From a virus: a DNA stretch of 44,631 nt. Below the pieces are notes generated by a model. That model worked only from the letters and a program-made list of their open reading frames with translations. It was not told the DNA's origin and searched no databases. Of this stretch, positions 2,783-42,083 are shown in pieces. Within the stretch, counting starts at the first letter, position 1. Each line of letters begins with the position of its first letter. Made by a program: the position numbers and the translations under genes. The stretch is from positions 1 through 44,631 of the IMG/VR virus record IMGVR_UViG_3300018469_000285; one strand, given 5' to 3'.

Positions 2783-2968
2783 ATGACGATCACGGTTAGA
2801 AAAGAAGGCGGGATGTGGCACGGCTACCTCGAAGGACACCCGGAGGTAGACGAAAGAGGGCTAACCGAAGAAGTAGCGAGAAGGAAGGTGCAGAATAGGG
2901 CGGAAACCTTGAAGGAGAACGTGAATGGCCGAACCGCTGCCGATACCCGACGAGGTACTAAAGGATGA
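2783..2968 (+). CDS. Small HicB-like hypothetical protein, 61 aa
   Basis: Short plus-strand ORF beginning MTITVRKEGGMWHGYLEGHPEVD, which reads like the beta-beta-alpha start of a HicB-type antitoxin fold (strand, GMWHGYLEG turn, then helix EEVARRKVQN). The last 14 residues run out of frame over the start of the next gene (44-nt overlap). No obvious Shine-Dalgarno. If real, it forms a two-gene unit with the DUF4145-like gene downstream. Family assignment is tentative. Confidence 0.5.
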   Translation: MTITVRKEGGMWHGYLEGHPEVDERGLTEEVARRKVQNRAETLKENVNGRTAADTRRGTKG

Positions 2969-3728
2969 CAGCCTGGCGGAAGTGCTGCGAGTCTGGAAAG
3001 GTCCTGACGGCCGAGTCTACGTATCCTGGGACGACAAGCAGGAGGGTGGGAGTGAGGCGGTAGGCGTCGTCCTCGGAGCGGTCGCTAACGTGATCGCGGC
3101 GCACGCGGGGGAAGCTGCGCGCGACGCAGCGCGCAAGGCGATGACGCAGGGCTTTAGACAAGCGGCGAGAGCGTTCATTCCTGATCATGTGGAGACGTTC
3201 CCTAAGCTCTTCGAGTACAACGACATCGTAGAGGCGTACCACAACGAATCGGATCGGGCGGCCGGGATACTGAGCGCCGCATGGCTGGACAACTATCTCG
3301 GGCAGTGCCTTCGATACTTCCTGGTCCAAGACGCTGAGACAGTGAAGCTCGTCGGCGGCGATAAGCAAACGGACCGACCGCTCAGCCCGTTCAAAGTTCG
3401 TGCGCGGGCGCTATTCTCGCTCGGCTTAATGAGCAAAGACGCACTGGCCGACGTGTCACTAATTGTTAGCGTGCGGAATCACTTCGCGCACCACCCGAGT
3501 GTCACATCGTTCGACGACGAGCAGATTAAGAGCTGGTGTAATGGTTTGCGCGCAGCCAAGATGAAGATGGGAGAGAACGCTCGACTCAACTTCCTGTTCG
3601 CCACAAGCTGGGTCGCGATAGAGTTAAATAACGCGCTAGGGCAAGCTCACACAATCGAAATGGCGCCTGACATCAATAGCGATAGCGCCGCCGTTAAGAA
3701 GGAGAGAGTGAAGCCGCCTACCTCCTGA
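2925..3728 (+). CDS. MltR/DUF4145-like protein (possible HEPN-type), 267 aa
   Basis: The C-terminal half matches what I know of the MltR (mannitol repressor-like)/DUF4145 family: NESDRAAGILSAAWLD at about 107-122, a PLSPF-KVRARALFSLGLMS stretch at 152-170, then SVRNHFAHH at 182-190. The R184-X4-H189 pattern is the arrangement seen in HEPN RNases, so an RNA-cutting role is possible but unproven. The N-terminal 100 residues contain an Ala-rich helical stretch (ANVIAAHAGEAARDAARKA). The start is supported by AAGGAG seven bases upstream. A hairpin followed by a T-rich run ends the unit just after its stop. It lies directly before the large structured RNA candidate. Confidence 0.7.
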   Translation: MAEPLPIPDEVLKDDSLAEVLRVWKGPDGRVYVSWDDKQEGGSEAVGVVLGAVANVIAAHAGEAARDAARKAMTQGFRQAARAFIPDHVETFPKLFEYNDIVEAYHNESDRAAGILSAAWLDNYLGQCLRYFLVQDAETVKLVGGDKQTDRPLSPFKVRARALFSLGLMSKDALADVSLIVSVRNHFAHHPSVTSFDDEQIKSWCNGLRAAKMKMGENARLNFLFATSWVAIELNNALGQAHTIEMAPDINSDSAAVKKERVKPPTS

Positions 3729-3754
3729 GATTCGGAGCATGAGAAGGGGTAAAA

Positions 3755-3780
3755 GCCTACTGTGTAGGTCTTGTTTTATT
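3755..3780 (+). terminator. Probable rho-independent terminator after the DUF4145-like gene
   Basis: CCTAC-TGT-GTAGG hairpin (extended by a G-T pair) followed by CTTGTTTTATTT, 27 nt after the stop of the upstream gene. It would end that mRNA and separate it from the structured RNA that follows. Confidence 0.55.
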
Positions 3781-4735
3781 TCGGCGTTCGTTCCGTTGTT
3801 TCTCGGCGCCGATCACCTTCCGCTCTCCGCTCGGTCAGTTTGCCGATTGGGTAATCCGTTCTCGCCGGAAGGGACGAGAAGCGCGATCTTGATTCCTGAG
3901 CCTTCGGATATACGAGCCAGGGGTACCAAGTCCTAACATTCAAAGGCATCCGGCGGGGGCTGTTAGGTTCGCCTACCCATTCCGCCAGTAAGTTTGTAAA
4001 ACAGGTCAGAGCTTGCGCCCTGAAAGGGATGGACGGGAAGCCATGGCCTAACAGATCAATAAAGATCAGTAGGCGTCCGGCCTCGCATCCATCCCTCTCA
4101 AGGAACCAGCGATTCATTCGCTGAGAACGCCGCAGAAGATTGGGGAGTCAAGCAGGGTTACCCGGCGGAACCTTCGTCTGCAGCCTTCTCAAAGAAGGAA
4201 ATGTTCTCGCTCTGACAGCGGGGAGGGATTACTCCCTCCAGAACGTTTGGAAGTCCTCCGGGCCTACCCCGGTGTCAAAGAGAGAACTCGGTCACGTGCT
4301 GGTGGGGAGGGAGGAAGAACTGCTTCTTGACCGCTATAGCCGTCCGTACTGGCCATCGTTCGTCAACGACCCCTCACCCTGTCAACACACAACCTTCAAG
4401 GAACTCTTTAGGCGGTCTCACCGCCATGCCACGTGTAAGTAGGTCTGTTCTTTCGCAAGGTGGACTTCAGGAAGGTAGGGCGGCGCGGTTCTTTAATTCG
4501 CGCATCTTCTTGCGTCCTGGGAGGGAGAAGGGTTTACTGCATCCCCTTCTGGCTAGCGCCGAGAGCTGTACAGTGGCTCTACGACTCGCCATCCCCCTCT
4601 CAAGAAACAAAACAGCCCGTGATTACGCACGAGCTGATCTGATCGTTCCATCCGCGTAATCAGATGAAACTACTTTCGCGTCAGTTGTCGAAGGAACTCC
4701 TTCATCGTAGACCTTCTGCGGAGGAGTGCAAGTAG
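3775..4735 (+). ncRNA. Candidate large structured noncoding RNA (~950 nt)
   Basis: About 1 kb without a credible gene but packed with nested complementary segments. Hairpins read directly: 3859-3880 (TTCTCG-CC with a GGAA tetraloop, GNRA only on the plus strand); 3932-3938/3961-3967 enclosed by 3921-3925/3974-3978; 4025-4033/4088-4096 (9 bp); 4046-4050/4070-4074; 4107-4112/4118-4123; 4184-4188/4194-4198; a perfect three-way junction at 4203-4244 (4203-4207/4240-4244 enclosing 4208-4211/4217-4220 and 4222-4228/4233-4239); 4258-4262/4268-4272; 4411-4415/4421-4425; 4483-4487/4499-4503; 4526-4532/4544-4550; 4620-4628/4654-4662; 4690-4694/4699-4703. The motif GGAAC recurs between the helices. Size, phage setting and ornate folding recall GOLLD and ROOL RNAs, but I cannot match it to either. 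The ends are uncertain. Confidence 0.7.
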
Positions 4736-4762
4736 GTGGGGGTGTTGATAAGTCAGAACGGG

Positions 4763-6437: not shown

Positions 6438-6689
6438 TCAACTCACGCCGCCTGAGCGGATCGTGGTAGTAGTTCCAACGGGGCGGAACACTTTGCAGCC
6501 GTCTCCTTCATGGCAGGAGCCTTTGGCGTGGGCTTTCTCACCGTGGCCGCATTTACAGATGCGTTCGGGAGTGAAGGTGGGACAACTACATGAGGTGCAG
6601 GGGCCGGTGGGATTCTGCTTCGTGCACCAGTGCTCGCTCTTCTTGTGTCGGCAGGTACAGATGGTGATGAGCCGCCGGAGCGGGAACAT
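6438..6689 (-). CDS. Cys/His-rich small zinc protein, 83 aa
   Basis: Two similar metal-binding modules: ICTCRHKKSEHWC near residues 10-22 with CTSCSC following, and ICKCGHGEKAHAKGSC near 44-59 with a later Cys. The CxCxH...H...C pattern strongly suggests two zinc sites. No other domain is visible. Its start overlaps the stop of the DUF932 gene upstream, so they are co-transcribed. Similar Cys-rich mini-proteins are common in phage accessory regions; function unknown. Confidence 0.7.
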   Translation of the reverse strand: MFPLRRLITICTCRHKKSEHWCTKQNPTGPCTSCSCPTFTPERICKCGHGEKAHAKGSCHEGDGCKVFRPVGTTTTIRSGGVS

Positions 6690-8581: not shown

Positions 8582-9415
8582 TTACTTCTTTGGTGCGAAG
8601 GGCAAAAGAAGAGTGTAGAGGCGGATCAGCTCACGAATCAGGGCGTTCCGATTCGTAGCGATGTTCACAACGAGCGGCGGGAGGTTTATGGCAGTGCCAC
8701 CCTCACGGATAAACTGCGGCTGGAAGTAGCGACGATGAATCTTCTTCACGGAGAACTGAGGGTCGCTTTCGGTGCTGTCCTTGACCCAGATGTAGTCCTT
8801 GTCGTAGCGGTCATACGCAACTACGAAGTGACCAGAAAGCGGCTGGCTGAAAGTAGGCGTGGTGTTCCTGAAGAATCCAGAGTCGCACTTAATTAGCAGG
8901 ATGACTTCCTTGTTCTGGTAGACGGCATCACACACGGCATCAAACGATAGGTCCGTGAGAAACGCGTAGGATGCGATCTTCTTGGTGGAGGCGTTCTGCC
9001 GCATCTCTGCGGTGAGCGGTGTTCTGCCGTAGGCTTCGACGGACTGCTCTACCGTATTCGGGAGCAGGGGGTAGTCGCAGGCCCCGGTGTTCTTCAGAGA
9101 CTTGAAGATAGAGCGCATGTCAGTGCCGACTTCGAGGGCATAGCCGTCGAAGGTCTTGATGTCGTTCCAGGTGAACTTCGGCGTGTAGTTGGCGGGAGCA
9201 GCGGTGTCGCGGGAGTCCTTTCTGACCTTGAACCAGGTGCCGGCGTGGGCTCCACAGGCCGGTTGGTGACTCTGGTAATAGGTAGGAAGGTTCGATACGT
9301 CTGAGAAGTGCGTTTCTGGGCGGGTGACCGGTGCCTGAACCGCACCGAGGTTAATGTCGCGTTTGTCTTCAGTTCGTTCGACTGCTCCCAGGATGAGGGG
9401 TAATACTTCGTTCAT
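8582..9415 (-). CDS. Papain-like (C1-type) cysteine protease, 277 aa
   Basis: The arrangement is papain-like: Gln51 and Cys54 in SHQPACGAHAGTW, a long middle, His196 in LSGHFVVAYDRY, and Asp213 in VKDSTE where papain has Asn. This order and spacing support a C1-family fold, with Asp in place of the third catalytic residue. No signal peptide is visible. It sits directly upstream of the holin-like gene in a minus-strand operon and downstream of the virion genes, so it may cut peptidoglycan peptides or host proteins during lysis, or act in virion maturation; the sequence does not decide. Confidence 0.7.
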   Translation of the reverse strand: MNEVLPLILGAVERTEDKRDINLGAVQAPVTRPETHFSDVSNLPTYYQSHQPACGAHAGTWFKVRKDSRDTAAPANYTPKFTWNDIKTFDGYALEVGTDMRSIFKSLKNTGACDYPLLPNTVEQSVEAYGRTPLTAEMRQNASTKKIASYAFLTDLSFDAVCDAVYQNKEVILLIKCDSGFFRNTTPTFSQPLSGHFVVAYDRYDKDYIWVKDSTESDPQFSVKKIHRRYFQPQFIREGGTAINLPPLVVNIATNRNALIRELIRLYTLLLPFAPKK

Positions 9416-9478
9416 TGAATCTTAAGGTTGATTTGATACTAGCGCGCCGACAGGAACGCGCAAGGTGAAGGCTGGGGA

Positions 9479-9595
9479 TTAACAGCGGTAGCTCGGACAG
9501 TCAGCATGCTCGATCTTCGGATACTCGGACGTGGCGACTAGTGCTATCCACGTGAAGACTATTGCTAGAACGAAGAGGGTAATGGCTCGGTTCAT
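9479..9595 (-). CDS. Tiny membrane protein, 38 aa
   Basis: Encodes MNRAITLFVLAIVFTWIALV followed by a short tail ending CPSYRC. One transmembrane helix spans about residues 5-22 and two cysteines lie at the end. Its ATG overlaps the stop of the large virion gene as ATGA, which supports it despite the short length. Its place just before the protease and holin-like genes suggests a lysis accessory (spanin- or antiholin-like), which is an inference only. Confidence 0.6.
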   Translation of the reverse strand: MNRAITLFVLAIVFTWIALVATSEYPKIEHADCPSYRC

Positions 9596-12500
9596 TTCTT
9601 TTGGTTGCGACGTTCGGCTTCTCCTCCAGTCGCTTTCTTGAAACGACGGACAGTGGCTTCGAAGACACTCTCTCCGCCGATTTGATCCCGCGGAATTAGT
9701 CCTCCCGTAGCGAGAGCTTGGTCCAGGGCATTTAGAGCCTGGGCGCCGACACCACCGAACGTCTCTTTGATGAATGTTTCGACTTTGATAGGCGAGACCT
9801 TGAAAGCCTTCGCGATGCGCCGAGCGGAGCCGGATGTGTAGTCGTAGACCTGTTCCTCGGCTGGCTTGTTCTTCATGTATGGAGAGACGATGTCCCGTCC
9901 GGTGAAGAAGTTCTTGTTTACTCCCACTTCGAGAGATGGCTTGATCGCCTGCGGAGTGATGGCTGAAAGGACGGAACCCTTGTCCGGCGAGACTGGAGAG
10001 ACTGAACCAATGAGAAGGTCGGCTAGTTCGGAGGCTCTCACGTCGTCATGGCCGAACGCCTGTTCAATCGCCCGGCGGGGGATGGACGAGAGATTGTTCA
10101 CCCCTTGGGCGAGCGGGATCTTGATGACGTTCCAACGGCCTTGCTCGTCCTTCGTGGGGTTTGGCGGCACGATGACGATGTTGTTCTCACGTTCGAATGG
10201 CGCGATGTCCTCGTAGGCTTCTCTACGTTCAGGGTCGCGCATGTTCCATGCGGTGACGATCGAGACCGGCATGAACACGGCGGTGGCGATCTTCGCTGCG
10301 GTCTGGACGGGGCGGGTGCTGGCGCTCCTTACGAGCGTCCTGGTGCCCTGGATGCCGGCGTTGAGATAGAGGAAGGCCGAATTGAGGACGGTTCCCCACT
10401 CCCCGCGGCGGGCGAAGTTGACGGTGTTCTCGCGGGCGGCTTTCGCGGCAGCAATCTTCGCCTCATCTTTCGACATGCCTTCCTTGATGAAGGCTTCCCT
10501 GGAACCGCGGTACTGCTGGAGGCGGGTAAGTTCTTCGGAGCGGCCGATGATGTCCTCCGCGGTTCGGAGTAGCTCAGAAGGGTGCTTCACGGTGTAGAGG
10601 ACGCGCCCGGCCGCGGAGCGGGAGGCGCGGATCTTCCCGATGGTCGCAGGTACTTGGTCGCGCGCGATGTCGAACGAAGTGCCACCGGCACCTTCTCTCA
10701 CCAGCTCTTCGTACAGCTCGTCGTGCTTCACAGCGGAGAAGAGGGCTTTGATGAAGTTCGCAGGGTTGGCAACGGAGGTGGCTAGCGCGCGGTTCGAGTT
10801 GATGAAGCCGCCTACCTGATCTTTGATGATGTTCGAGGCGACGAACGGCACGTTGATGCCGGTAATGCCGAGCTTCGCGACACGCACCGGGAGCGCGAGA
10901 ATCTTCCCGAGGATGTTCATCTGCTGGACGTTCAGGGCTTTCGCGGCTTCCGCAATCTCCTTCGAAGTCTCGAAGGTGCGCTTCACGCCGTCATCAAGGT
11001 ACGAAATGGTGTGCGGGGCGCTCTCTCCTTTCGGTAGTTCGCGTAGACTGAACGGGTTGCCCGGAAGGTCTTTATAGCTGGCAAGAATACGGGCGGCCTT
11101 GTTCTTCTCCCCCTGCCTAAAAGCATCGCTCGTCTTCGCCATGAGTGATTCAATCGGGCTGGCGATCTCACGAGTAGAGCCGGTGAGTTTCTGAACAATC
11201 GTCTGCTTTGAGAGAGAGGCGATGGCCTTGCCTCCGCCAAAGCCAAGGTCGGCTACTTCGTCATCAGCGAAGATGCGCTGGAGCGGGACGTAGTCCGGGT
11301 AGATCTCCTTCAGCTTCGTCGCGAGCTCCTTCGAGATGAGGCCGGAGTCAACGGAGTAGTCGAGGAGCTTCTGCGAGTAAGCGGTGACGGTCTTCGCTAG
11401 GCCTTCATACTCCGGGCCGAGGGTCTCGATCAGCCTCGTGTCGCTCGCAAGGTCTCTACCGGTTTTTAGTCCGTTTGCGGCGACCGTGCGCGTGTGCTTC
11501 GCGATCAGGTACTGGTCGAGAGCATCGAGGTCGGGAGCTTCTTTGATGACAGCTTCGAGGCCGCCGTCTCGCACGAACTGACCAGCGATGGCCGGCGCGC
11601 GGAGTACGCGGTCGATCTGGTTCGTGATGTGTTCCGACGGCCGGAGAGTGGTCTTAGTCTTCTTCAGAGTGTCGGCGAGAACGTCTTCAATCGGTGCGGC
11701 AAAGTCGACGAGTTTGCGTTTCGCCAGGCTAAGGAACGAACCAACACCTTCAAACACCTTTGGTCCGGGTCCTCTGGCGGCTTCGCGTTCAGCAACGTTT
11801 TTCGCGACGTACTTTGCCGCGTCAAACGCATCGTCTGCTTTCGTTACGAGGTTCTTGACCGCCTTTGGTCCCTTGGCGATGTCGTCGAGTGGACCGATCA
11901 TGCCGAGACCAACGCCGAGGGCGAAGGGCGTCATCTTCTTGTTGTTGCTGATGCGAGGGTCGTTCTTCGCGTCGGCGGGATCGGCGAAGACTCCGGCGGC
12001 TACATCGCGGGCCACGCCCCCAGCCTTGCGAACAGGAGCTGGAATCGTGCTCGGATCACGCTCAACAGGAAGCGGCGTTCGAAAAGCCTCGTTCGATCTG
12101 AAGCTCGAATTGACCTTGAAAGGAGAGGTCTCAGGTACTCCGGCCGGCGCGGTGGTGCGGACGGGAACGGCTTCATAGCCCTTCGCGCCGACGTCCGGCA
12201 ACTCAACGCCCTTCGCTTCAGCGATGCGACGCTGACCTTCTAGGAGGCTGATCTGACCGGTGGATACCTGCTTCGAGATCCTGTTAACCAGCGTGTTCAA
12301 CTGGATCGCGCGGCCCTTCGTGGTTCGTCCTGGTTCGAGGCCGAGGTTCGTCTTCTGGTTCGAGCCTGAGAGAGAAAGCGCGATGCGATGATCTAGCTCG
12401 TCGTCGTACCCGGCTCCGAGTTCCTTTCGGATAGCGTCCGTTACCTCTTGAGGTACACGGCCGTTCACGAGCATCTTCCGGTCGATCTTCTGAGGAACGG

Positions 12501-22844: not shown

Positions 22845-23171
22845 TTAGATTTCGACCTTGAATGTTTGCTTGAGGTGGGCGCGGAGCGAGTCACGCTGCG
22901 CGGATGGGGTATCGAGGAAAAGGGTGAGGGTGTCGTTGAAGTGCGAGAGGGCTTGGTAGAAGGTCTGACGCTTCTCCGAGTTGTCGAACTTCTTCATCTC
23001 CTCGTGAGCCCGCCGGCCTTCGGAGGCGACAAGCTTGCGGATGTCGTCGAGGGTGACTTCGGGTGAGGAGAGGATGCGGCCCCACTCCTGATATGTCTTC
23101 CGCTCTTCCGCGCTCAGCTCATCGAAGCTCTTGATGCCCAACCTTTCGAGTAGTTCGGAGAGGTTAAACAT
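22845..23171 (-). CDS. Portal-adjacent hypothetical protein, 108 aa
   Basis: All-helical (MFNLSELLERLGIKSFDEL, EERKTYQEWGRIL, REHEEMKK-like helix, LKQTFKVEI end). Overlaps the portal gene's 3' end by 8 nt. Small acidic proteins here are often found beside the portal in this kind of phage; function unknown. Confidence 0.6.
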   Translation of the reverse strand: MFNLSELLERLGIKSFDELSAEERKTYQEWGRILSSPEVTLDDIRKLVASEGRRAHEEMKKFDNSEKRQTFYQALSHFNDTLTLFLDTPSAQRDSLRAHLKQTFKVEI

Positions 23172-24849
23172 TGGCGGGTTGAGGTCGGGTTAGTTGAGGC
23201 ATCGGCATGGCAGGGGCTCCAGGTGCACCTCCCGGCATTCCCATACCCATCGCGGCCATCTGGTCGTCGAAGTTCATAATCTCTTCCTTCTGTTCAGGAG
23301 AGAGGTCGCTCAGGTAATCGAGCATCTTCTCTTTCTTGACCTTCTGGAGAGGCGCGTTCAGCGGGAACTGCGCGGCGACGATCTGGAGCTTCTGGATGGA
23401 TTCGAGGGCGTCGGCATCCTTCTGAGCCTTTTGAGTCACGCGACAGCGGTAGCCGGCCTTCGAAGTGAGTTCGGAAGCCTTGACGGTGCGGGGGAAGAAG
23501 CGGCCGGATGGGGACTTCTTGTGGAGAACTACGTCCTCGAGAAGATCCGGGTTCGCGTTTACGAGCGCGGCAACCTTGTTTCCGAGGTCGATGTCTCTTT
23601 GCTTCAGGTACTTGTTGATGGCGCTGATGCGCTGGGAGGCTTTCTGCGCGAGGAGCTGGATCTCGCCGAGGGTCTTCGTGCCGTTCTCCGCGTCACCCTT
23701 CTCGATGCGGGTGGCCGCGGTGGCCGATTCAACCATCGACTTGATCATGCCCATCTCTTCCATGTGCGAGGCGAGCTCCGGCACCTCAACGTGCTGCAGA
23801 ACGTCGGCGGGCTTACCTGGAAGCGGGTAGAAGCCGAACGGCGAAGGGACGTAGCCGACCGGAGACCAGCCTTCCTTCGCGGTGGCGTCGTAGAAGTTCA
23901 TGCCGTAGCCGCGGAGGACGCCGTTCTCTGTCATCTGGGAGAAGTAGACGTTCAGAATCTGGTTCGGGGTGCGAACGATGTCGGCCATGCCGTCAGACCA
24001 GAAGTCGGTGCGTTCAACGTCGGAGGCCCAGGTAACCCACGTATATTCGTTGATACCGAGGATGTCCCTTAGAGGTTTGTCCATCAAGATGGTGTTCCCC
24101 TGGGCCGTCACGACGACATGTACTACGTCTTCCTGCTTCGCTTCATCCCAGACCTTCATCTGGCACTCGTTCAGCTCGACGTAGGTCTCGCCTAGGATCG
24201 GGCTCGTCACATCCGAAACGCCGAGAGATTCGAGTCTCTGGGCCTTATCTGCGGCCATCTCCGCGTTCTGGGCGGCGGCTACTAAACCTAGCTTCGAGGC
24301 GAAGAAGGTCTTGAGCTGGTTCACCATGTTCTTGTCGAACATGGCGTTTCGCTCGATGTCCGAAAGGGTGGCGTAGATGCCGGTGTGGGTGATGCGCCGG
24401 GCGGATTCTAAGTCCCACGGGTTCACGTAGCGGTCCACCAGCACGTCCTGCGGGTCGATGATCTCCAGGGTGAGCCGGCCGGAGATGATGTTCAGTTTCC
24501 AGAAAGAGCGGCCGTAAAGGAACTCCTGCTTCGCGTCGATCTCGTTCAGGATGTTCAGGCGGGAGCGTTCGGCTACGTGCTTCCAGTATTCATTGAACAG
24601 AAGCTCCTTCTGGCCGTCGTTGTCGAGGTTCTCGAAGTAGATGTCCTGCTCTTCCATCCCGGCAAGGAGGGTCTTCCGGGTCTCCTTCATGAGCGGTACA
24701 TTCACGCTCTGGCGCTGGGTCAGCCGGTTCGTGATGACGGTGTCGCGATCCAAAAGATAGTTGTCGGTCCACTGCTGATGTCGGCGTTCTCTAAAACGCC
24801 GATCGGACTCAAGGTTCTTCTGGGTTGTTTCGATGGAAACTTGCGGCAA
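23164..24849 (-). CDS. Portal protein (P22-like), 561 aa
   Basis: The size and regional signature fit a portal: N-terminal helices, a conserved clip/stem zone with LILDPQDVLVDRYVNPW-type sequence near residues 130-150, YTWVTWASDVERTDFWSDG, and the C-terminal helical wing (ASELTSKAGYRCRVTQKAQKDA). The tail is Met/Pro/Gly-rich (about 530-561). It forms the dodecameric DNA entry ring and joins terminase and adaptor. It is the first gene of the late structural operon on this strand and is followed by scaffold, coat and tail genes. Confidence 0.85.
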   Translation of the reverse strand: MPQVSIETTQKNLESDRRFRERRHQQWTDNYLLDRDTVITNRLTQRQSVNVPLMKETRKTLLAGMEEQDIYFENLDNDGQKELLFNEYWKHVAERSRLNILNEIDAKQEFLYGRSFWKLNIISGRLTLEIIDPQDVLVDRYVNPWDLESARRITHTGIYATLSDIERNAMFDKNMVNQLKTFFASKLGLVAAAQNAEMAADKAQRLESLGVSDVTSPILGETYVELNECQMKVWDEAKQEDVVHVVVTAQGNTILMDKPLRDILGINEYTWVTWASDVERTDFWSDGMADIVRTPNQILNVYFSQMTENGVLRGYGMNFYDATAKEGWSPVGYVPSPFGFYPLPGKPADVLQHVEVPELASHMEEMGMIKSMVESATAATRIEKGDAENGTKTLGEIQLLAQKASQRISAINKYLKQRDIDLGNKVAALVNANPDLLEDVVLHKKSPSGRFFPRTVKASELTSKAGYRCRVTQKAQKDADALESIQKLQIVAAQFPLNAPLQKVKKEKMLDYLSDLSPEQKEEIMNFDDQMAAMGMGMPGGAPGAPAMPMPQLTRPQPANV

Positions 24850-35429: not shown

Positions 35430-36701
35430 TTAGGTCAGAATCTTGTTGATGTGATCCGAGACTTTCTTCCTTGAATGGAGGTAGTTGGTCCGGGTGCGGT
35501 TCTGGATAGATTCAAGTCTTGCCCGCTTCCCCTTGGAGAGAGGAACAGGAGGTCTAAACGACTTCATGAGGTGCGGATCAGATGTCGTCCCGTCGTCGTT
35601 CGTGGTTGTGACGTACCACGTGTGCGCGTCCATGCGAACAAGGGTCTTGGGTTCCTGAATCGGGAGCGCGTTCGCCAGGAGTTCCGCGTCCTCGGGGCCT
35701 ACCCTACCAACTCCGAGCGTGCCGATGTTGCCGAGAATCGCTTTGGTGAGGTCTTCGAAGTCCCGCCCGCCCGTTGTCTGGTCGAGGATAGTCAGATGCA
35801 CTCCGTACTTCCTGAGCGACCGGAACATCTCCTCGAAGGTCACTTCACCCGGCCGGACTATCGAGTGAAACTCGTCCATGTACAGGTAGAAGTCTTCGCG
35901 CTCTTCCTTCGCGATCGCCTCGCGCTCCAGCGCCTCAGAAAGAATCTCGGACATAACAAGCGAAGCGATGGCAGAGACGAGCTTCGAATCCATCCGCCCC
36001 GCGGAGAGACGCAGGAGGAAGATCGGCTTCGCGTTCATGATCGCGCCCATGCTCGCGCCCTGGTAGCTCCCGACCATTTCGCGGAGGAAGGGCTTCGAAA
36101 GGAAGTCGATCTTGTTCGTGATCGGAGCTGCGGCGGTGTTCCGCTGGCTGGCGTTCCAGTCCTCGTCGAACTGTTGGAAGAACAGATCGACGTTAGCCGC
36201 GTCGATGTAGGGACGCAGGGATTCGCGGTACGGCTTCGAGGTGAAGGCTTTGAGGAGATGCGCCAGCGTCGGGGCTTGTTCTTTACACAGGACCGCATAG
36301 CCGACGTTGAACGCGTTACGGTCTGACGCGCCGCCCCAGCCGTTCGGGAAAAGAGCGGAGAGAATCGAGACGACTTGCCCGAGCTTCTTCACTCTTCCCT
36401 CGAAGGTCTGAGCCCGGAGCAACGGAAGTCGAAACACCCACTCGATGTCCGATGGGTCGATGAGGATTACGTCATCCGTCCTGTTCGAAGGGATGTGCTT
36501 CAGGATGTCGTCTACCAGCTCGCCGTGCGGGTCGATGACTCCTACTCCGTCGCCGTTCTTGATGTGGTGGGTGACTTGACTTAGCGCCAGCGAGGATTTC
36601 CCGGAACCAGTCTTCCCGTAGAACGCCGCGTGACCGTTTGCCGGCATGGTGATGACGGGAGGGCCGAAGTACTTGAGTTGTTTGCCGAGGGGGATTCGCA
36701 T
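35430..36701 (-). CDS. HerA/TraD-type DNA-pumping ATPase (coupling-protein-like), ~423 aa
   Basis: Walker A GKTGSGKSS near residues 29-37 (counting from MRIPLGK), then GVGVIDPHGELVDDILKH, and Walker B FYLYMDEFHSI with Asp-Glu. This is the HerA/FtsK fold of conjugative coupling proteins (TraD/TraG/VirD4) and DNA pumps; the sequence GVIDPHGEL ... is shared with the second ATPase at 38592. No membrane segment is visible, so it is not anchored by itself. I start it at the second ATG because GGGGAG precedes it. May pump or unwind DNA during replication, partition or transfer. Confidence 0.8.
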   Translation of the reverse strand: MRIPLGKQLKYFGPPVITMPANGHAAFYGKTGSGKSSLALSQVTHHIKNGDGVGVIDPHGELVDDILKHIPSNRTDDVILIDPSDIEWVFRLPLLRAQTFEGRVKKLGQVVSILSALFPNGWGGASDRNAFNVGYAVLCKEQAPTLAHLLKAFTSKPYRESLRPYIDAANVDLFFQQFDEDWNASQRNTAAAPITNKIDFLSKPFLREMVGSYQGASMGAIMNAKPIFLLRLSAGRMDSKLVSAIASLVMSEILSEALEREAIAKEEREDFYLYMDEFHSIVRPGEVTFEEMFRSLRKYGVHLTILDQTTGGRDFEDLTKAILGNIGTLGVGRVGPEDAELLANALPIQEPKTLVRMDAHTWYVTTTNDDGTTSDPHLMKSFRPPVPLSKGKRARLESIQNRTRTNYLHSRKKVSDHINKILT

Positions 36702-36807
36702 CAGATGGCTCCCCGCCCCTCTCATACACCAGACGGGCTACGTCTGAAACGATGAGAGGGATAGGCGGAGCACCGACCGTAGCCGGATTTAGGTATGGAC
36801 TTTCAGT

Positions 36808-36966
36808 TTAGCAGTTGGTGGAGTTGGTGTCGGGGTCACGCCTGTGCAGAGCGGCGAACCGAGCCTCCCAATCAAAAACGTGGTCGCACTTGTGACACCC
36901 GATAGTGCCACGGAACGATGAGTAGCGATGTCCACCAGTAATCCAACAAAGGAGGCGCGAGAACAT
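36808..36966 (-). CDS. Small zinc-binding protein (DUF1660-like?), 52 aa
   Basis: MFSRLLCWITGGHRYSSFRG followed by a pair GCHKCDHVFDW. Early Cys plus His and a later C-X2-C resemble the small prophage zinc proteins of the DUF1660 kind, a tentative match. Its start overlaps the stop of the replication-relaxation gene (TGATG type), which supports it. Confidence 0.55.
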   Translation of the reverse strand: MFSRLLCWITGGHRYSSFRGTIGCHKCDHVFDWEARFAALHRRDPDTNSTNC

Positions 36967-37805
36967 CAGAGGTCGAGTAGCGAGTACGACCTTTCGGGGT
37001 AGTCAGCCGGAGTGTGAAAGACCTTTCCCATCGGGTCGGCTAGAAACTCCTTGTCAGTCGCGATCCAGACGCGGCGGAAGGCAAGGTTCATCTCGACGAG
37101 CTTCTTCAGAAGGTTCTTCTTCCGAGCCTGGGGTTTCCGGTCGTTGTCCTTCACGATGAAGATGACGCGGAAGTCGTCGAAGAGCTTCCAGTCTTCGCGA
37201 ACCTTCCTCTTCAGCTTGCCCATGCGGTAGTCGTCGTACTTCTTCACCTTCTTCACGAGCCCGGAAACTCCGGGGTCGGTGTAGTGATTCATCCTGGTGC
37301 GCTCGTACTCGAGGAAAAAGAAGTGGCCGGTCTTGCCATCGCGCGAGATGCCGAACATTGCGTCTGGGTTCACGGTGCGCTTCATGTGGCGCTGCTCCCA
37401 GATGACTTTGCCGGGAAACTTGTCGAGGGCCTGATGTAGCGCAGTTAGATTCTGGTCGTGGTTCGCGGAGGTCGGGGTCTTCTCGCCGAGGAACTTGCCT
37501 TTGGTGGCGAAATTTGCCCCGTGCTTTGAAAGCCGATAGGAATACTCCGCGGCGGGAGCCCGGCGGATGACCGATTCATCCGGCATGATCGGAGTGCGGA
37601 GCAGGTAGCCAGCCTCGAACATTAGAAGGAGGCGGTTGCGGACAGCACGCTCAGAAAGGTTGCCGCCGTCCGCTCTGGTGCGGGTGGCGCCGAGGAGTTC
37701 GTACACCTGCTTCGAGGTGAGGTACTGGTGCTTCTCGAACAGGTCGAGCAGAGCAACCCGTTCGGGGGTGAGGTAGCGGGGATGGTTCGAGCCGATGCTT
37801 CTCAT
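36966..37805 (-). CDS. Replication-relaxation (Replic_Relax) family protein, 279 aa
   Basis: Recognised by its N-terminal winged helix (YLTPERVALLDLFEKHQYLT at 11-30) and the C-terminal nuclease-like motifs: His116 (NHDQNL), Pro147-Asp148 (NPDAMFG), Glu166-x-Glu168 (FLEYERTR) and Lys/Tyr at 185-190 (KVKKYDDY). This set resembles a PD-(D/E)XK-type fold. Family members are annotated on plasmids and integrative elements as putative relaxation or replication proteins. Next to two HerA-type ATPases, it would be the site-recognition partner. Size is usual. Confidence 0.75.
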   Translation of the reverse strand: MRSIGSNHPRYLTPERVALLDLFEKHQYLTSKQVYELLGATRTRADGGNLSERAVRNRLLLMFEAGYLLRTPIMPDESVIRRAPAAEYSYRLSKHGANFATKGKFLGEKTPTSANHDQNLTALHQALDKFPGKVIWEQRHMKRTVNPDAMFGISRDGKTGHFFFLEYERTRMNHYTDPGVSGLVKKVKKYDDYRMGKLKRKVREDWKLFDDFRVIFIVKDNDRKPQARKKNLLKKLVEMNLAFRRVWIATDKEFLADPMGKVFHTPADYPERSYSLLDL

Positions 37806-37898
37806 GGGGAGGGAGTGTGAGGTGGGGGTGAATGAGGGAGAGAGGACTGCGGGGGGTGTAGCGGAAGTGTGAGCCGAGGTGTAACGAAAAGCGGGATG

Positions 37899-38312
37899 CT
37901 AAGAGGCTTCGGCCCGGTTCGTTGTTTCGGGGGAGGGTGTTTTTAAAAGGTCGTTTTCGAGGAGGTAGATGAGCATTTTGGCGCGGGCGTCGGCTTCGCT
38001 CTCCTCGCCAATGAGGTCAAACTTGTTGTGAATCGTGGACTGGCAATACCAACCAATATCCTCATCACTGTATCCAGAGGACAATCCGCTTTGCTTCAAC
38101 ATCTCCCCTAGCTCGGCTACGGTGAAGGCGGAGATTCTGTCTTTGATATGCCAACCGCCCTGGTAGTCAGATTTCTCAACAACGTGTTGATAATCGTCAT
38201 AGGAGTTGCTGAAGTTCTCATTGAGCCAACAGAGGTAACTCTCTTGCTTCACTCCCAGCTCTTTCAGTTTCTTCGCAAGCTCTAGGCTTACGACTTGTTG
38301 TTCTAGTTTCAT
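37899..38312 (-). CDS. Hypothetical phage protein, 137 aa
   Basis: Starts MKLEQQVVSLELAKKLKELG and has KDRISAFTVAELGEML and ADARAKMLIYLLENDLL. I recall similar proteins in phages and prophages of many hosts, without function. Helical; no metal or catalytic motif. The ATG is preceded by AATTGACCTACCTCAC without a Shine-Dalgarno. Confidence 0.7.
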   Translation of the reverse strand: MKLEQQVVSLELAKKLKELGVKQESYLCWLNENFSNSYDDYQHVVEKSDYQGGWHIKDRISAFTVAELGEMLKQSGLSSGYSDEDIGWYCQSTIHNKFDLIGEESEADARAKMLIYLLENDLLKTPSPETTNRAEAS

Positions 38313-38322
38313 GTGAGGTAGG

Positions 38323-38502
38323 TCAATTGGTTTGCTCTGGCTGGAGGTACTTCGCGACTATCGCGCGAAGAGCAGTGTTTACGGTGTCGTGGTCGCGCTC
38401 GCAGTAGTGGCTGGTGGCCGGTTCGTCGAGCATCTCAACGATCTCTCTTGCTACCTGACGCTGGGCTTCGGCAACGGCGGTCTTGACGTCGATCTCGGAC
38501 AT
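38323..38502 (-). CDS. Small hypothetical protein, 59 aa (paralogue of 30763 gene)
   Basis: MSEIDVKTAVAEAQRQVARE then IVEMLDEPATSHYC and LRAIVAKYLQPE. Shares this pattern with the 125-aa gene at 30763-31140, including the EAQxQxAREI core and the KYL end. It starts just downstream of a promoter with an operator palindrome and could be the first gene of that operon. Confidence 0.6.
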   Translation of the reverse strand: MSEIDVKTAVAEAQRQVAREIVEMLDEPATSHYCERDHDTVNTALRAIVAKYLQPEQTN

Positions 38503-38546
38503 GTAGGTGTTAGATAGATTAATGTAGCTGGACGGGCTACATACTC

Positions 38547-38574
38547 ATACTACTACCACAGTGGTAGCCGTCAA
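38547..38574 (-). promoter_or_regulatory. Promoter with operator palindrome between -35 and -10
   Basis: On the minus strand: TTGACG (38569-38574), 16-base spacer, TAGTAT (38547-38552). The spacer contains the perfect palindrome CTACCAC-A-GTGGTAG (38553-38567), placed between the two polymerase contacts, which is how phage repressors often work. The half-site CTACCAC recurs at 40637-40643. Candidate control of the gene at 38323 and the genes after it. Confidence 0.6.
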
Positions 38575-38591
38575 GGGCAGGGGTTGATAAG

Positions 38592-39809
38592 TCAATCCTG
38601 TGGAAACGGCGTCGGTTCGGGATCTGTGTCAAGAGCGATCGGTGCAGCAACCGGCTCCGCTTTCACGATGGCCGGGTATCTGGATCGTGTGTGCTCGATT
38701 ATCTCGTCTCTGAATCCTTCCGGCGGGCGGGGCGGGAACTCTAAGACGTGCTTCTTTGCATCCGCCGGTCGGCCGGGGCGGAAGATGTAATGGAGCTTCG
38801 GAAGATTCTGCAGGTCTTCGGCAGTCAGTTTCCCAACCTGTGAGCCGAACTTCTTCGCGTCTGCGTCCATCAGTCGGAAGAAGACAGCGGTGCCGCATTT
38901 CGAGATCGCGTTCTGAAGTCCGGCTTCCTTCAGGTCTTCGATGGCCTGATTAGCAAGAGTCAAACACAAGCGATACTTCCGAGACTCGGTAATGATCTCG
39001 TTGAAAGCCGAGGTTCTGAAGTTCTGGAACTCGTCGATGAAGAGGTAGAAGGGAATCCGGTCTCGTTCGGGTAGGGCGCTCTGTCTGAAGCCTGCCAACT
39101 GGAACTGCGAGACGAGAAGAGTCCCCAGGATCGGCGAGGTGTCAATCCCGACGTTCCCCTTCGCGATGTTCGCGATGAAGATTTTCCGCTCCCGAACGAT
39201 GTCCGAGAAGTTCAGCTCGGAGAGAGTCGAGGTCACAGCCTTCAGATACTTGTTAGTCACGAACTCCAGGAGTCGGGTGACCAAAGGTCGCTCGGCTTCC
39301 GGGTGCCTGTACGTAGTCCAGACTTCGCGCCAGAAGTGCTTAATGTCCGGGTCTTGAACCTTCGCGACTATCTGAGACCGGAAGTAGTCATCTGTAAAGA
39401 GGCGGTAGAAGTCGAAGAAGGTCGAGCCGGGAACATCAAGAAGCGTAGCGATCGACATCTTCATGATCGCGTCTAACTGCACTCCCCCACCCCGTTTGTC
39501 ATCTCCTACAAGGCGTTGAAAGAGTAGGAACAAGTCGCCGGAAACAAGTATCCGCTCTTCAGGAGTCCGGGCACCTAACAGATTCAACCCGATAGGGGTA
39601 ACCTGCGGGTTGAAGTAGACGCAGTCCTTGATCCGATTCCGGGGCACGTACCTAACAACCTGCTCCGCTAGGTCCCCGTGAGGGTCGATCAGTCCTACCC
39701 CTTTGCCGTTCAAGATGTCCTGCCGGAGCATCGAACGCATAAAAGTCGTCTTCCCCATCCCGGATAAACCGAGGATGTAGACGTGCTCACTTCGCGGGGG
39801 AGCGTCCAC
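38592..39809 (-). CDS. Second HerA/TraD-type ATPase (coupling-protein-like), 405 aa
   Basis: Walker A GLSGMGKTT at 14-22, GVGLIDPHGDLAEQVVRYVP at 38-57 as in the other ATPase, Walker B PFYLFIDEFQNF with Asp259-Glu260, and a C-terminal region (FRLMDADAKKFGSQVGKLTAEDL) resembling the TraM-recognition/coupling class. The two ATPases share order and motifs but differ widely in length and tail. GTG start overlapping the stop of the membrane protein gene upstream (TAGTG), so it is translationally coupled to a membrane anchor. Confidence 0.8.
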   Translation of the reverse strand: MDAPPRSEHVYILGLSGMGKTTFMRSMLRQDILNGKGVGLIDPHGDLAEQVVRYVPRNRIKDCVYFNPQVTPIGLNLLGARTPEERILVSGDLFLLFQRLVGDDKRGGGVQLDAIMKMSIATLLDVPGSTFFDFYRLFTDDYFRSQIVAKVQDPDIKHFWREVWTTYRHPEAERPLVTRLLEFVTNKYLKAVTSTLSELNFSDIVRERKIFIANIAKGNVGIDTSPILGTLLVSQFQLAGFRQSALPERDRIPFYLFIDEFQNFRTSAFNEIITESRKYRLCLTLANQAIEDLKEAGLQNAISKCGTAVFFRLMDADAKKFGSQVGKLTAEDLQNLPKLHYIFRPGRPADAKKHVLEFPPRPPEGFRDEIIEHTRSRYPAIVKAEPVAAPIALDTDPEPTPFPQD

Positions 39810-40903: not shown

Positions 40904-41001
40904 CCCAAACCTTCCTTTTTGGGGTTGGTTTGGTTCCCTCGCGTTCCCGATCCGTCGAGGTAGCCGGGACACTCCTGCGCCTGCGATGGTAGCATTTTGG
41001 A

Positions 41002-41679
41002 ATGAGAACAGTCCGGGTGAGGCGAACCGCGTACATATTTAAGTGGTTGTGCTTCCTAGCGGTTATCGCCCTGGGTATCTGGTGGACGATGTGGCTCTTG
41101 GAGAAGAACAAGCCGCGCGTGAAGCCGGCGGTAGCCGTGGTGAGGCCTCCGGTGCGGTGGGCGCCTGATCCTGTCTCGGAGGCGAAGCCGGAAGCGAAGA
41201 AGAAGAGAGTCCGGGCGAGTAAGCCCGCCCCGGCGTCGGCTCCGGCCGTGGAGCCCACCAGAGCGGCGGTAGACGCCCACGACTACGTTCCTGCCCCTGA
41301 ACCAGCCCGAGAGCCCGTGAGGGCCGCTGAGCCGCGTCTAGGCGTCGAGGAAGAACCTCCGGCGCCTGCTAAGGCCTGGGTGGAGCCGAAGGACGTTACC
41401 TACCTTGGGAAGGTCGTCGTATGCGAAGGGACGAAGTACGATCAGTCCTCGGTGATGGGTGCGATTGACCGGCAGGGGCTGAACTCGTTTTACCTGTGCC
41501 TGGACGTCGGCAACGCGTTCACGAAGGTGCAGGTCGATAACCTCTACAACCCGGTCATGTTCACGCACCGAGGCGGCGAGTACCGGGCGGTGCAGCTTCG
41601 GAAGAACGACGTCGTCCGGGTCAAGGTGAACGACGGCCAAGCGCTCAAGGTCGAGATGGTGAAGTCGGTGAAGGACTGA
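41002..41679 (+). CDS. Membrane-anchored Pro/Ala-rich protein, 225 aa
   Basis: A membrane helix at about 13-35 (YIFKWLCFLAVIALGIWWTM), a low-complexity Pro/Ala/Lys/Glu linker (about 38-130) and a C-terminal beta domain (KDVTYLGKVVVCEGTKYD, FYLCLDVGNAFTKVQVD, YRAVQLRKNDVVRV). Such anchor-linker-domain proteins occur in envelope and secretion complexes. It faces the cruciform from the other side and is the last gene before attR. Function unknown; could be part of a surface or translocation apparatus. Confidence 0.65.
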   Translation: MRTVRVRRTAYIFKWLCFLAVIALGIWWTMWLLEKNKPRVKPAVAVVRPPVRWAPDPVSEAKPEAKKKRVRASKPAPASAPAVEPTRAAVDAHDYVPAPEPAREPVRAAEPRLGVEEEPPAPAKAWVEPKDVTYLGKVVVCEGTKYDQSSVMGAIDRQGLNSFYLCLDVGNAFTKVQVDNLYNPVMFTHRGGEYRAVQLRKNDVVRVKVNDGQALKVEMVKSVKD

Positions 41680-41788
41680 CGCCCCGTGTACTTGAAATGT
41701 ACTTAGACGGGGGAATTTCAGCGGTTCGAGAGTTTTTAGCGTCGTTTAGAATCAGTAACTTACTGAATCTACGAAGGGTCAAATAGTA

Positions 41789-41809
41789 CAAGTCCTCTTG
41801 CCCCGACCA
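41789..41809 (+). other. tRNA 3'-end fragment, likely attR core
   Basis: CAAGTCCTCTTGCCCCGACCA ends a tRNA: loop-like CAAGT, T-stem strand CCTCT, acceptor strand TGCCCCG, discriminator A and encoded CCA. The 5' half of a tRNA is absent, as expected for the short copy made when a phage integrates into a tRNA gene. A strong terminator follows, as if displaced from that tRNA. The other copy must lie just left of the window. Confidence 0.6.
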
Positions 41810-41822
41810 TTTGACTGACCGG

Positions 41823-41848
41823 ACGCCGCGCGGAAGCGCGGCGTTTTT
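41823..41848 (+). terminator. Strong rho-independent terminator (likely of the interrupted tRNA)
   Basis: ACGCCGCGC (41823-41831), loop GGAA, GCGCGGCGT (41836-41844), then TTTT. Nine perfect base pairs with a GNRA loop and a T-run. It follows the tRNA 3' end at a natural distance of 13 nt. Confidence 0.85.
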
Positions 41849-41850
41849 GC

Positions 41851-42014
41851 TATGGAGTGCGGTAACGCCAGTTACCGCTTTGCCTGCTTCTGTTCGCGCA
41901 GCAATCCGTGGCCGGTGCAATCTCGCCGCGTCGCACGAGCGAAGGCTGGACCTGTTCGCGTTGCAGGGCAAACAAAAACAGTCAAAGCGGTAACTCGCGT
42001 TACCGCACTCCATA
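41851..42014. mobile_element. MITE-like element with 32-bp terminal inverted repeats
   Basis: Left arm TATGGAGTGCGGTAACGC... (41851-41882) and right arm ending CGCACTCCATA (41983-42014) match in 31 of 32 positions. Each arm also holds an internal palindrome (GCGGTAAC / GTTACCGC). Total length 164 bp; no gene inside. It starts right after the tRNA terminator. Non-autonomous insertion element of the host chromosome; a possible target duplication is not clear. Confidence 0.75.
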
Positions 42015-42083
42015 AGCTGCGGCGCACCGCAGTCACCCCGTCCAATTCCCGAACACCTCCGGTTACGAGCGTGTGACGTGAAC

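Follow-up and report, generated by a model that had tools for sequence, protein, structure and literature searches.

A conserved minus-strand structured RNA with covarying kissing loops in a gene-free gap of a phage genome

The locus studied here raises the question of what a stretch of phage DNA that is rich in helices and poor in genes encodes, from which strand, and how the product might act. The window, i.e., the whole stretch of DNA analysed, is the 44,631-nt IMG/VR virus record IMGVR_UViG_3300018469_000285, whose phage character is evident from its integrase, capsid and terminase. Positions 3755-4700 of this 44-kb virus almost certainly encode, on the minus strand, a structured RNA of up to ~950 nt. 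This RNA is non-coding and conserved, and its helices and loop-loop pairing are kept by compensatory change.

Coding content, fold and strand of the gap

The flanking genes converge on the gap, with an MtlR/HEPN-like gene ending at 3728 (+) and a 57-aa ORF at 4936-4763 (−), the latter read in the same direction as the RNA. All ORFs in 3740-4740 scored negatively (−0.09 to −0.36 bits/codon) by the codon usage of the phage's own genes, a yardstick on which real genes of the same phage reach +0.08 to +0.62 bits/codon; the first-pass annotation, which had seen no credible gene in the region, was right on this point. It was right, too, about ornate structure: the whole region folds beyond dinucleotide shuffles on both strands, with z-scores of −5.24 on the minus and −3.65 on the plus strand, although in two of the relatives described below the z-scores of the two strands are about equal (G003 and G027). 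The signal is strongest at 3900-4200, downstream of the 5′ domain, where 200-nt windows (3900-4199) gave z-scores of −6.5 and −7.1 on the minus strand versus −2.4 and −3.8 on the plus strand. As a control, 40 positions elsewhere in the genome, taken on both strands, had a mean of −0.46 (sd 1.33, minimum −4.2).

The plus strand, on which the annotation had placed the RNA, had to be given up, as the better fold, the conserved U.G pairs, the promoter and the covariance model are all on the minus strand. The GNRA loop (3859-3880) by which it had fixed the strand gives way to a conserved GNRA that is the GCAA of a minus-strand hairpin at 4022-4007, and part of the recurring GGAAC that it saw is explained by complementarity to the GUUYYUU leaders of the minus-strand modules and not by a plus-strand motif. 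It had also proposed the neighbouring MtlR/HEPN-like gene (2925-3728, +) as a partner. The gene assignment stood (Pfam MtlR, E 5.9e-8, residues 117-214, with a weak N-terminal DUF5076), but the partnership did not, since the gene adjoins the RNA only in the window and the other scanned flanks hold unrelated proteins, including HNH-like and unknown-family ones. A plus-strand RNA with this protein as partner would account for the adjacency in the window and for a plus-strand fold that also beats shuffles; we nevertheless give it almost no credence, because the covariance model R1 (see below) and the promoter lie on the minus strand, the minus fold is the stronger one in the window, the scanned neighbours in other phages are unrelated, and the MtlR gene is separated from the region by a terminator-like hairpin.

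The MtlR/HEPN-like protein had no close relatives in viral and genome collections, also when used as a search anchor, and its distant relatives were seen on five plasmids. A small HicB-like-looking ORF at 2783-2968 (+), MTITVRKEGGMWHGYLEGHPEVDER..., had no Pfam or PHROG match; it is conserved in G027 (63% over 51 aa), where it likewise precedes the gap.

Homologues in four further phages and the 5′ domain

RNAs of this kind escape Rfam and DNA search, and the homologues surfaced only via protein relatives. Blastn with the window region found none in phage or plasmid collections, and the L227 RNA as query likewise found none. IMG/VR relatives were gathered via the capsid and a second conserved structural protein, 23164-24849, which we term portal from its genome position, without a family match. 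When the whole records of these relatives were searched with the region, two short collinear matches appeared in G027, and the G027 gap in turn yielded G003, the closest phage relative (E 7e-26). The string UUUGUUUCUUGAG, identical in the window, G027 and G003, was used as a pattern and led to L227 and L243; the last pattern scan gave 98 matches, of which L227, L243 and the already known G027 and G003 were true and the others chance. Four further IMG/VR phages (G003, G027, L227 and L243) carry homologues in gene-free gaps, the RNA spanning ~950 nt in the window and about 480-670 nt in the analysed stretches of the other phages. The positions recorded were as follows.

L227, ~9260-9930: RNA homologue
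L154 (the G027 record), 5405-4830, minus strand: RNA homologue
L243, 298-940: RNA homologue

Other routes were unproductive. The integrase as anchor gave none by 8-mer patterns in the viral contig collection; the plus-strand patterns AAGGAACTCYTT..GYAAGTAGGT and CTTGCGYCCTGRRAGGG gave nothing or chance coding matches; and the pattern CTTGAGAGGG..ATGG..CGAG gave coding matches only.

Apart from the 5′ domain, no long stretch is clearly common to all five phages. In the window, this domain comprises the following features.

4645-4670, minus strand: hairpin HP1, GUUUCAUC-UGAUUACGCG-GAUGGAAC, whose loop kisses HP2; within the model R1 match
4613-4636, minus strand: hairpin HP2, CAGCUCGUG-CGUAAU-CACGGGCUG, whose loop CGUAAU pairs with AUUACG of the HP1 loop
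4599-4612, minus strand: linker UUUUGUUUCUUGAG, U-rich and terminator-like after HP2, running into module 1; strictly conserved

HP1 and HP2 adjoin via a short linker and differ in stem length. The HP1 stem is 100% paired in the five phages, with one pair changed on both sides, while 7 of the 12 pairs of HP2 are changed on both sides. Over the whole five-sequence alignment of the domain, 96.9% of pair cells hold standard pairs and 8 of 20 pairs are double-changed, a level reached by none of 500 shuffles; when the partner strand was slid, only 37-47% remained paired. The homologues thus show paired changes and not the coding conservation by which the first-pass annotation would have been refuted. 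The string UUUGUUUCUUGAG is identical in all five homologues. Furthermore, a covariance model of the domain (R1), built from G003, L227 and G027 only, with the window left out, gave 44.2 bits (E 7.6e-7) for minus-strand positions 4670-4596 of the window and 38.7 bits for L243, with no match on the plus strand of the window. R1 also found no match in 79 loci around portal relatives.

The two loops are complementary in every phage. Four different loop sequences occur among the five phages (AUUACG/CGUAAU, AUUGAG/CUCAAU in two phages, GGAUAG/CUAUCC and GAAUGG/CCAUUC), each complementary to its own partner, and cognate loops form 6-7 Watson-Crick pairs whereas non-cognate ones form only 2-4. The pairing could equally well join two copies or form within a single molecule. 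A tentative possibility is that copies of the RNA self-assemble through kissing loops and constitute a new phage RNA class; as the loop varies by phage yet always matches its own partner, each RNA would then recognise only itself.

A promoter lies just upstream of HP1, and a terminator-like hairpin lies at the other end of the region.

4704-4731, minus strand: sigma70-like promoter, TTGCAC (4731-4726), 16-nt spacer, TACGAT (4709-4704), with a start predicted at ~4697
3751-3769, minus strand: terminator-like hairpin CCUACACAGUAGG then CUUUU, with U-runs in both directions; likely the 3′ limit of the RNA

A −35-like hexamer (TTG..., or TCGACG in G003), 16-17 nt and TANGAT precede HP1 in each of the five phages, and TTG-N19/20-TANGAT occurs a single time in the entire window, counting both strands; the generic promoter scan missed the site because it has only 7 of 12 consensus matches. 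The hairpin at 3751-3769 was called by the scan on the plus strand, with a number of sites at chance level, and its minus-strand tail was read by eye. The RNA thus probably starts near the predicted position 4697 and ends at or before the hairpin at 3769-3751.

HP2 followed by UUUUGUUUC resembles an intrinsic terminator, so a ~95-nt RNA could be the main product. The functional unit would then be a short leader or attenuator made of the first ~95 nt (promoter, HP1, HP2 and U-tract), in which pairing with the HP1 loop tunes the HP2 terminator to yield either a small RNA or read-through, and what lies downstream would be secondary. The GC-rich HP2 followed by UUUUGUUUCUU and the lack of any other long stretch clearly common to the five phages speak for this reading, as do the R1 matches in 4 of 287 unrelated Patescibacteria genomes, which are plain terminator-like hairpins. 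We consider it unlikely, however, as the U-tract is identical through UUGAG, beyond what a terminator needs, covarying stems and GNRA hairpins are maintained in the modules further on, and the strongest fold signal likewise lies downstream, at 3900-4200. One capsid relative sits in a Paceibacterota bin, and the 287 genomes were drawn from that phylum; as homologues of the RNA, the four matches were judged false, lacking HP1 and the kissing pairing.

Repeated modules, 3′ part and tRNA-like pieces

Beyond the linker, the RNA carries modules with the grammar UUGA(G/A)-helix-(C/U)(C/U)CAG, represented by ten stems and differing in number between phages. Those of the window are listed below.

4509-4603, minus strand: Module 1, UUGAGAGGG ... 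CCCUCCCAGGACGCAAG, a covarying stem with an invariant first U.G pair
4291-4393, minus strand: module with the stem GUUGUGUGUUGA ... CCAGCACGUGAC, counterpart of L227 module 2 (GUUGUGCGUUGA ... CCAGCGCAUGAC)
4107-4192, minus strand: Module 2, UUGAGAAGG ... UUCUCAG
4123-4107, minus strand: closing hairpin of Module 2, CAGCGA-AUGAA-UCGCUG, with counterparts in G003, L227 and L243
4007-4101, minus strand: Module 3, UUGAGAGGGAUGGA (4101-4088) ... UCCAUCCCUUUCAG (4033-4020), whose stem and hairpin covary
4022-4007, minus strand: GNRA hairpin of Module 3, CAGGGC-GCAA-GCUCUG, with covariation

Eight of the ten stems are followed by a 6-bp hairpin (CAGGGC/GCUCUG or CAGCGA/UCGCUG), which has a GCAA loop in five cases. 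In the ten stems, 84 of 90 cells are paired versus 67 after shuffling (reached by 0 of 2000 shuffles); since these stems were picked by eye before counting, the 5′ domain carries more weight as evidence. Every one of the ten opens with U.G, a pair that would be C.A on the plus strand, which fixes the minus strand. Module 3, the site of the first blast homology with G027, contains the 9-bp stem that the first-pass annotation had read at 4025-4033/4088-4096; it proves to be part of a 14-bp stem (4101-4088 with 4033-4020) whose counterparts in the relatives covary. For the module at 4291-4393, the window and L227 match over 44 nt (73%) and the stem is predicted in both folds, the pairing being compared by eye. 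For the window by itself, the tandem-duplication statistic lacked significance, being reached by 6 of 60 shuffles.

A 3′ domain with 73-80% mutual similarity is common to G003, G027 and L227. A model of it (R2) found no match in the window or L243, indicating that the 3′ part is not homologous throughout. CCUAACA/UGUUAGG in the window was considered as the counterpart of a G003 pseudoknot, but this by-eye match is not claimed, as R2 misses the window.

The variable region also holds tRNA-like pieces, among them the following string in the window.

3970-3987, minus strand: UGGCGGAAUGGGUAGGCG, tRNA D-arm-like, with a counterpart in G027 and L243

This region matches G027 over 18 nt (89%) and lies inside a 57-nt match to L243 (72%). 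A D-arm-like GGCGGAAUAG(G)UAGACG lies at the end of an acceptor-like stem in G027 (record L154) and L243, and a T-arm-like AGAGGUUCGACUCCUCU adjoins an acceptor-like stem in L227. In addition, CATGCGAGGTGACTATACGAGT is exactly common to the variable parts of G027 (L154) and L243. These D-arm-like and T-arm-like strings, together with a weak YrlA match in L227 (18 bits, E 0.65), would fit a tRNA mimic or decoy that binds or occupies tRNA-processing enzymes, ribosomes or a host anti-phage tRNA-attacking nuclease. Such a role seems rather improbable, given that ARAGORN found no tRNA in the window or the searched homologue loci, that no tRNA or tmRNA family of Rfam matched, that the YrlA match falls far short of the gathering score of 69, and that the elements are not common to all homologues.

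Genomic setting, proposed working and known phage RNAs

The RNA has the same location in four of the five phages (the window, G027, L227 and L243), with early genes (a Cys-rich gene and, where found, SSB) on one side and a related integrase on the other, although L227 and L243 have structural genes for the most part unrelated to those of the window. Another relative, G024, has the same Cys-rich gene and a 63%-identical integrase, but neither an RNA motif nor an R1 match was found between the two, which indicates that the RNA is accessory and dispensable. The small Cys-rich protein (6477-6674, − in the window) is 66-77% conserved in four RNA-bearing phages and in the RNA-less G024 and belongs to no Pfam or PHROG family. 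A related integrase in G036 (40969-42036, −) has an internal TAA stop and perhaps marks a decayed prophage. At 35430-39809 (−), the window encodes two TrwB/HerA-like ATPases and a Pfam Replic_Relax protein, an arrangement known from mobilisable elements and seen here in a tailed-phage genome. A further motif lies upstream of the RNA promoter.

4743-4751, minus strand: DnaA-box-like TTATCAACA, by sequence resemblance only

Counterparts lie in a similar place in L227 (TTATCCACA) and in L243 and G003 (TTATCCCCA), and none was seen upstream of the RNA in G027. The sites TTATCAACA, TTATCCACA and TTATCCCCA may point to a link with replication or DnaA control.

It could be argued that the locus acts as DNA, its folded single strands serving as a replication origin, transfer origin or packaging site; a DnaA-box-like TTATCMMCA upstream in four of five phages, the Replic_Relax and ATPase genes, and the fact that both strands beat shuffles would agree with this. 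We regard it as improbable, because the conserved U.G wobbles are strand-asymmetric, with the module-opening U.G invariant in 10 of 10, the promoter is conserved in the right place, and the relative G024 does without the element.

The reading that we favour, by a modest measure, is an autonomous, trans-acting structural RNA comparable with GOLLD and ROOL. Action through the fold is preferred because conservation falls on shapes and loop contacts and not on a target-like sequence or an ORF, and because the RNA has its own promoter. The predicted minus-strand transcript of up to ~950 nt would start from this promoter at about 4731-4704 and would be made as one molecule, comprising in order two adjacent kissing hairpins, repeated stem modules with short hairpins, and a tRNA-like variable region. 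Made during phage life in the cell, it may, like GOLLD and ROOL, form a stable folded particle, organised by the loop-loop contact within one molecule or between copies, and its role would be structural or sequestering and not the regulation of neighbouring genes.

We compared the RNA with known classes. At the gathering threshold, no family of Rfam release 15 was found in the window, and when the cut-off was relaxed to E ≤ 10, the region itself gave nothing credible, and neither it nor any of the four homologues matched GOLLD, ROOL, OLE, HEARO or group I/II introns; a short search of open-licence papers returned no description of the RNA. The first-pass annotation, which could match the region to none of the known giant RNAs and thought it similar to GOLLD and ROOL in size and setting and perhaps a new class, is thus upheld: this is a large structured phage RNA, unmatched in Rfam. 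It is long and non-coding, with a covariation-supported multi-helix fold and loop contacts, as expected of a large ornate phage RNA, which is a working kind and not a curated family.

The phage RNAs GOLLD and ROOL assemble into cages made of RNA only, with intermolecular kissing loops, GOLLD being a 14-mer nanocage whose variable region can hold a tRNA, and OLE is a large ornate bacterial RNA that forms a homo-oligomer (PMC12286853). Like GOLLD, the new RNA is a large multi-helix phage or prophage RNA with kissing loops kept by covariation and a variable region, here with tRNA-like pieces. In contrast to GOLLD, its kissing hairpins are at the 5′ end and are followed by UUGAR/YYCAG modules; it shares the phage setting of GOLLD, which lies near tRNAs, and no tRNA genes were found in the window or the searched homologue loci. 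It resembles ROOL as a phage or prophage RNA of similar length with loop-loop pairing and without a known protein partner, but its helices differ and it was not seen near tRNA genes. OLE is a bacterial and not a phage class. With YrlA it shares tRNA-like elements, through a weak similarity confined to L227 and absent from the window.

The phi29 pRNA is a phage RNA with two mutually complementary loops. The new RNA has this trait in common with it, whereas phi29 pRNA is far smaller, has another fold, comes from an unrelated phage type and gave no Rfam match here.

As it fits no catalogued family, the RNA looks like a new class of giant phage RNA, plausibly one within the large ornate phage RNAs. 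The large structured RNAs described from phages so far fall into very few classes. With its simple modular build, small 5′ domain and swappable loop pairing, the present one would offer a tractable system for studying what such RNAs do. A further unrelated class would also help to ask whether RNA-only assembly evolved repeatedly; if the RNA does self-assemble, RNA-only particles of phages would have a third origin, unrelated to GOLLD and ROOL and built from repeated modules.
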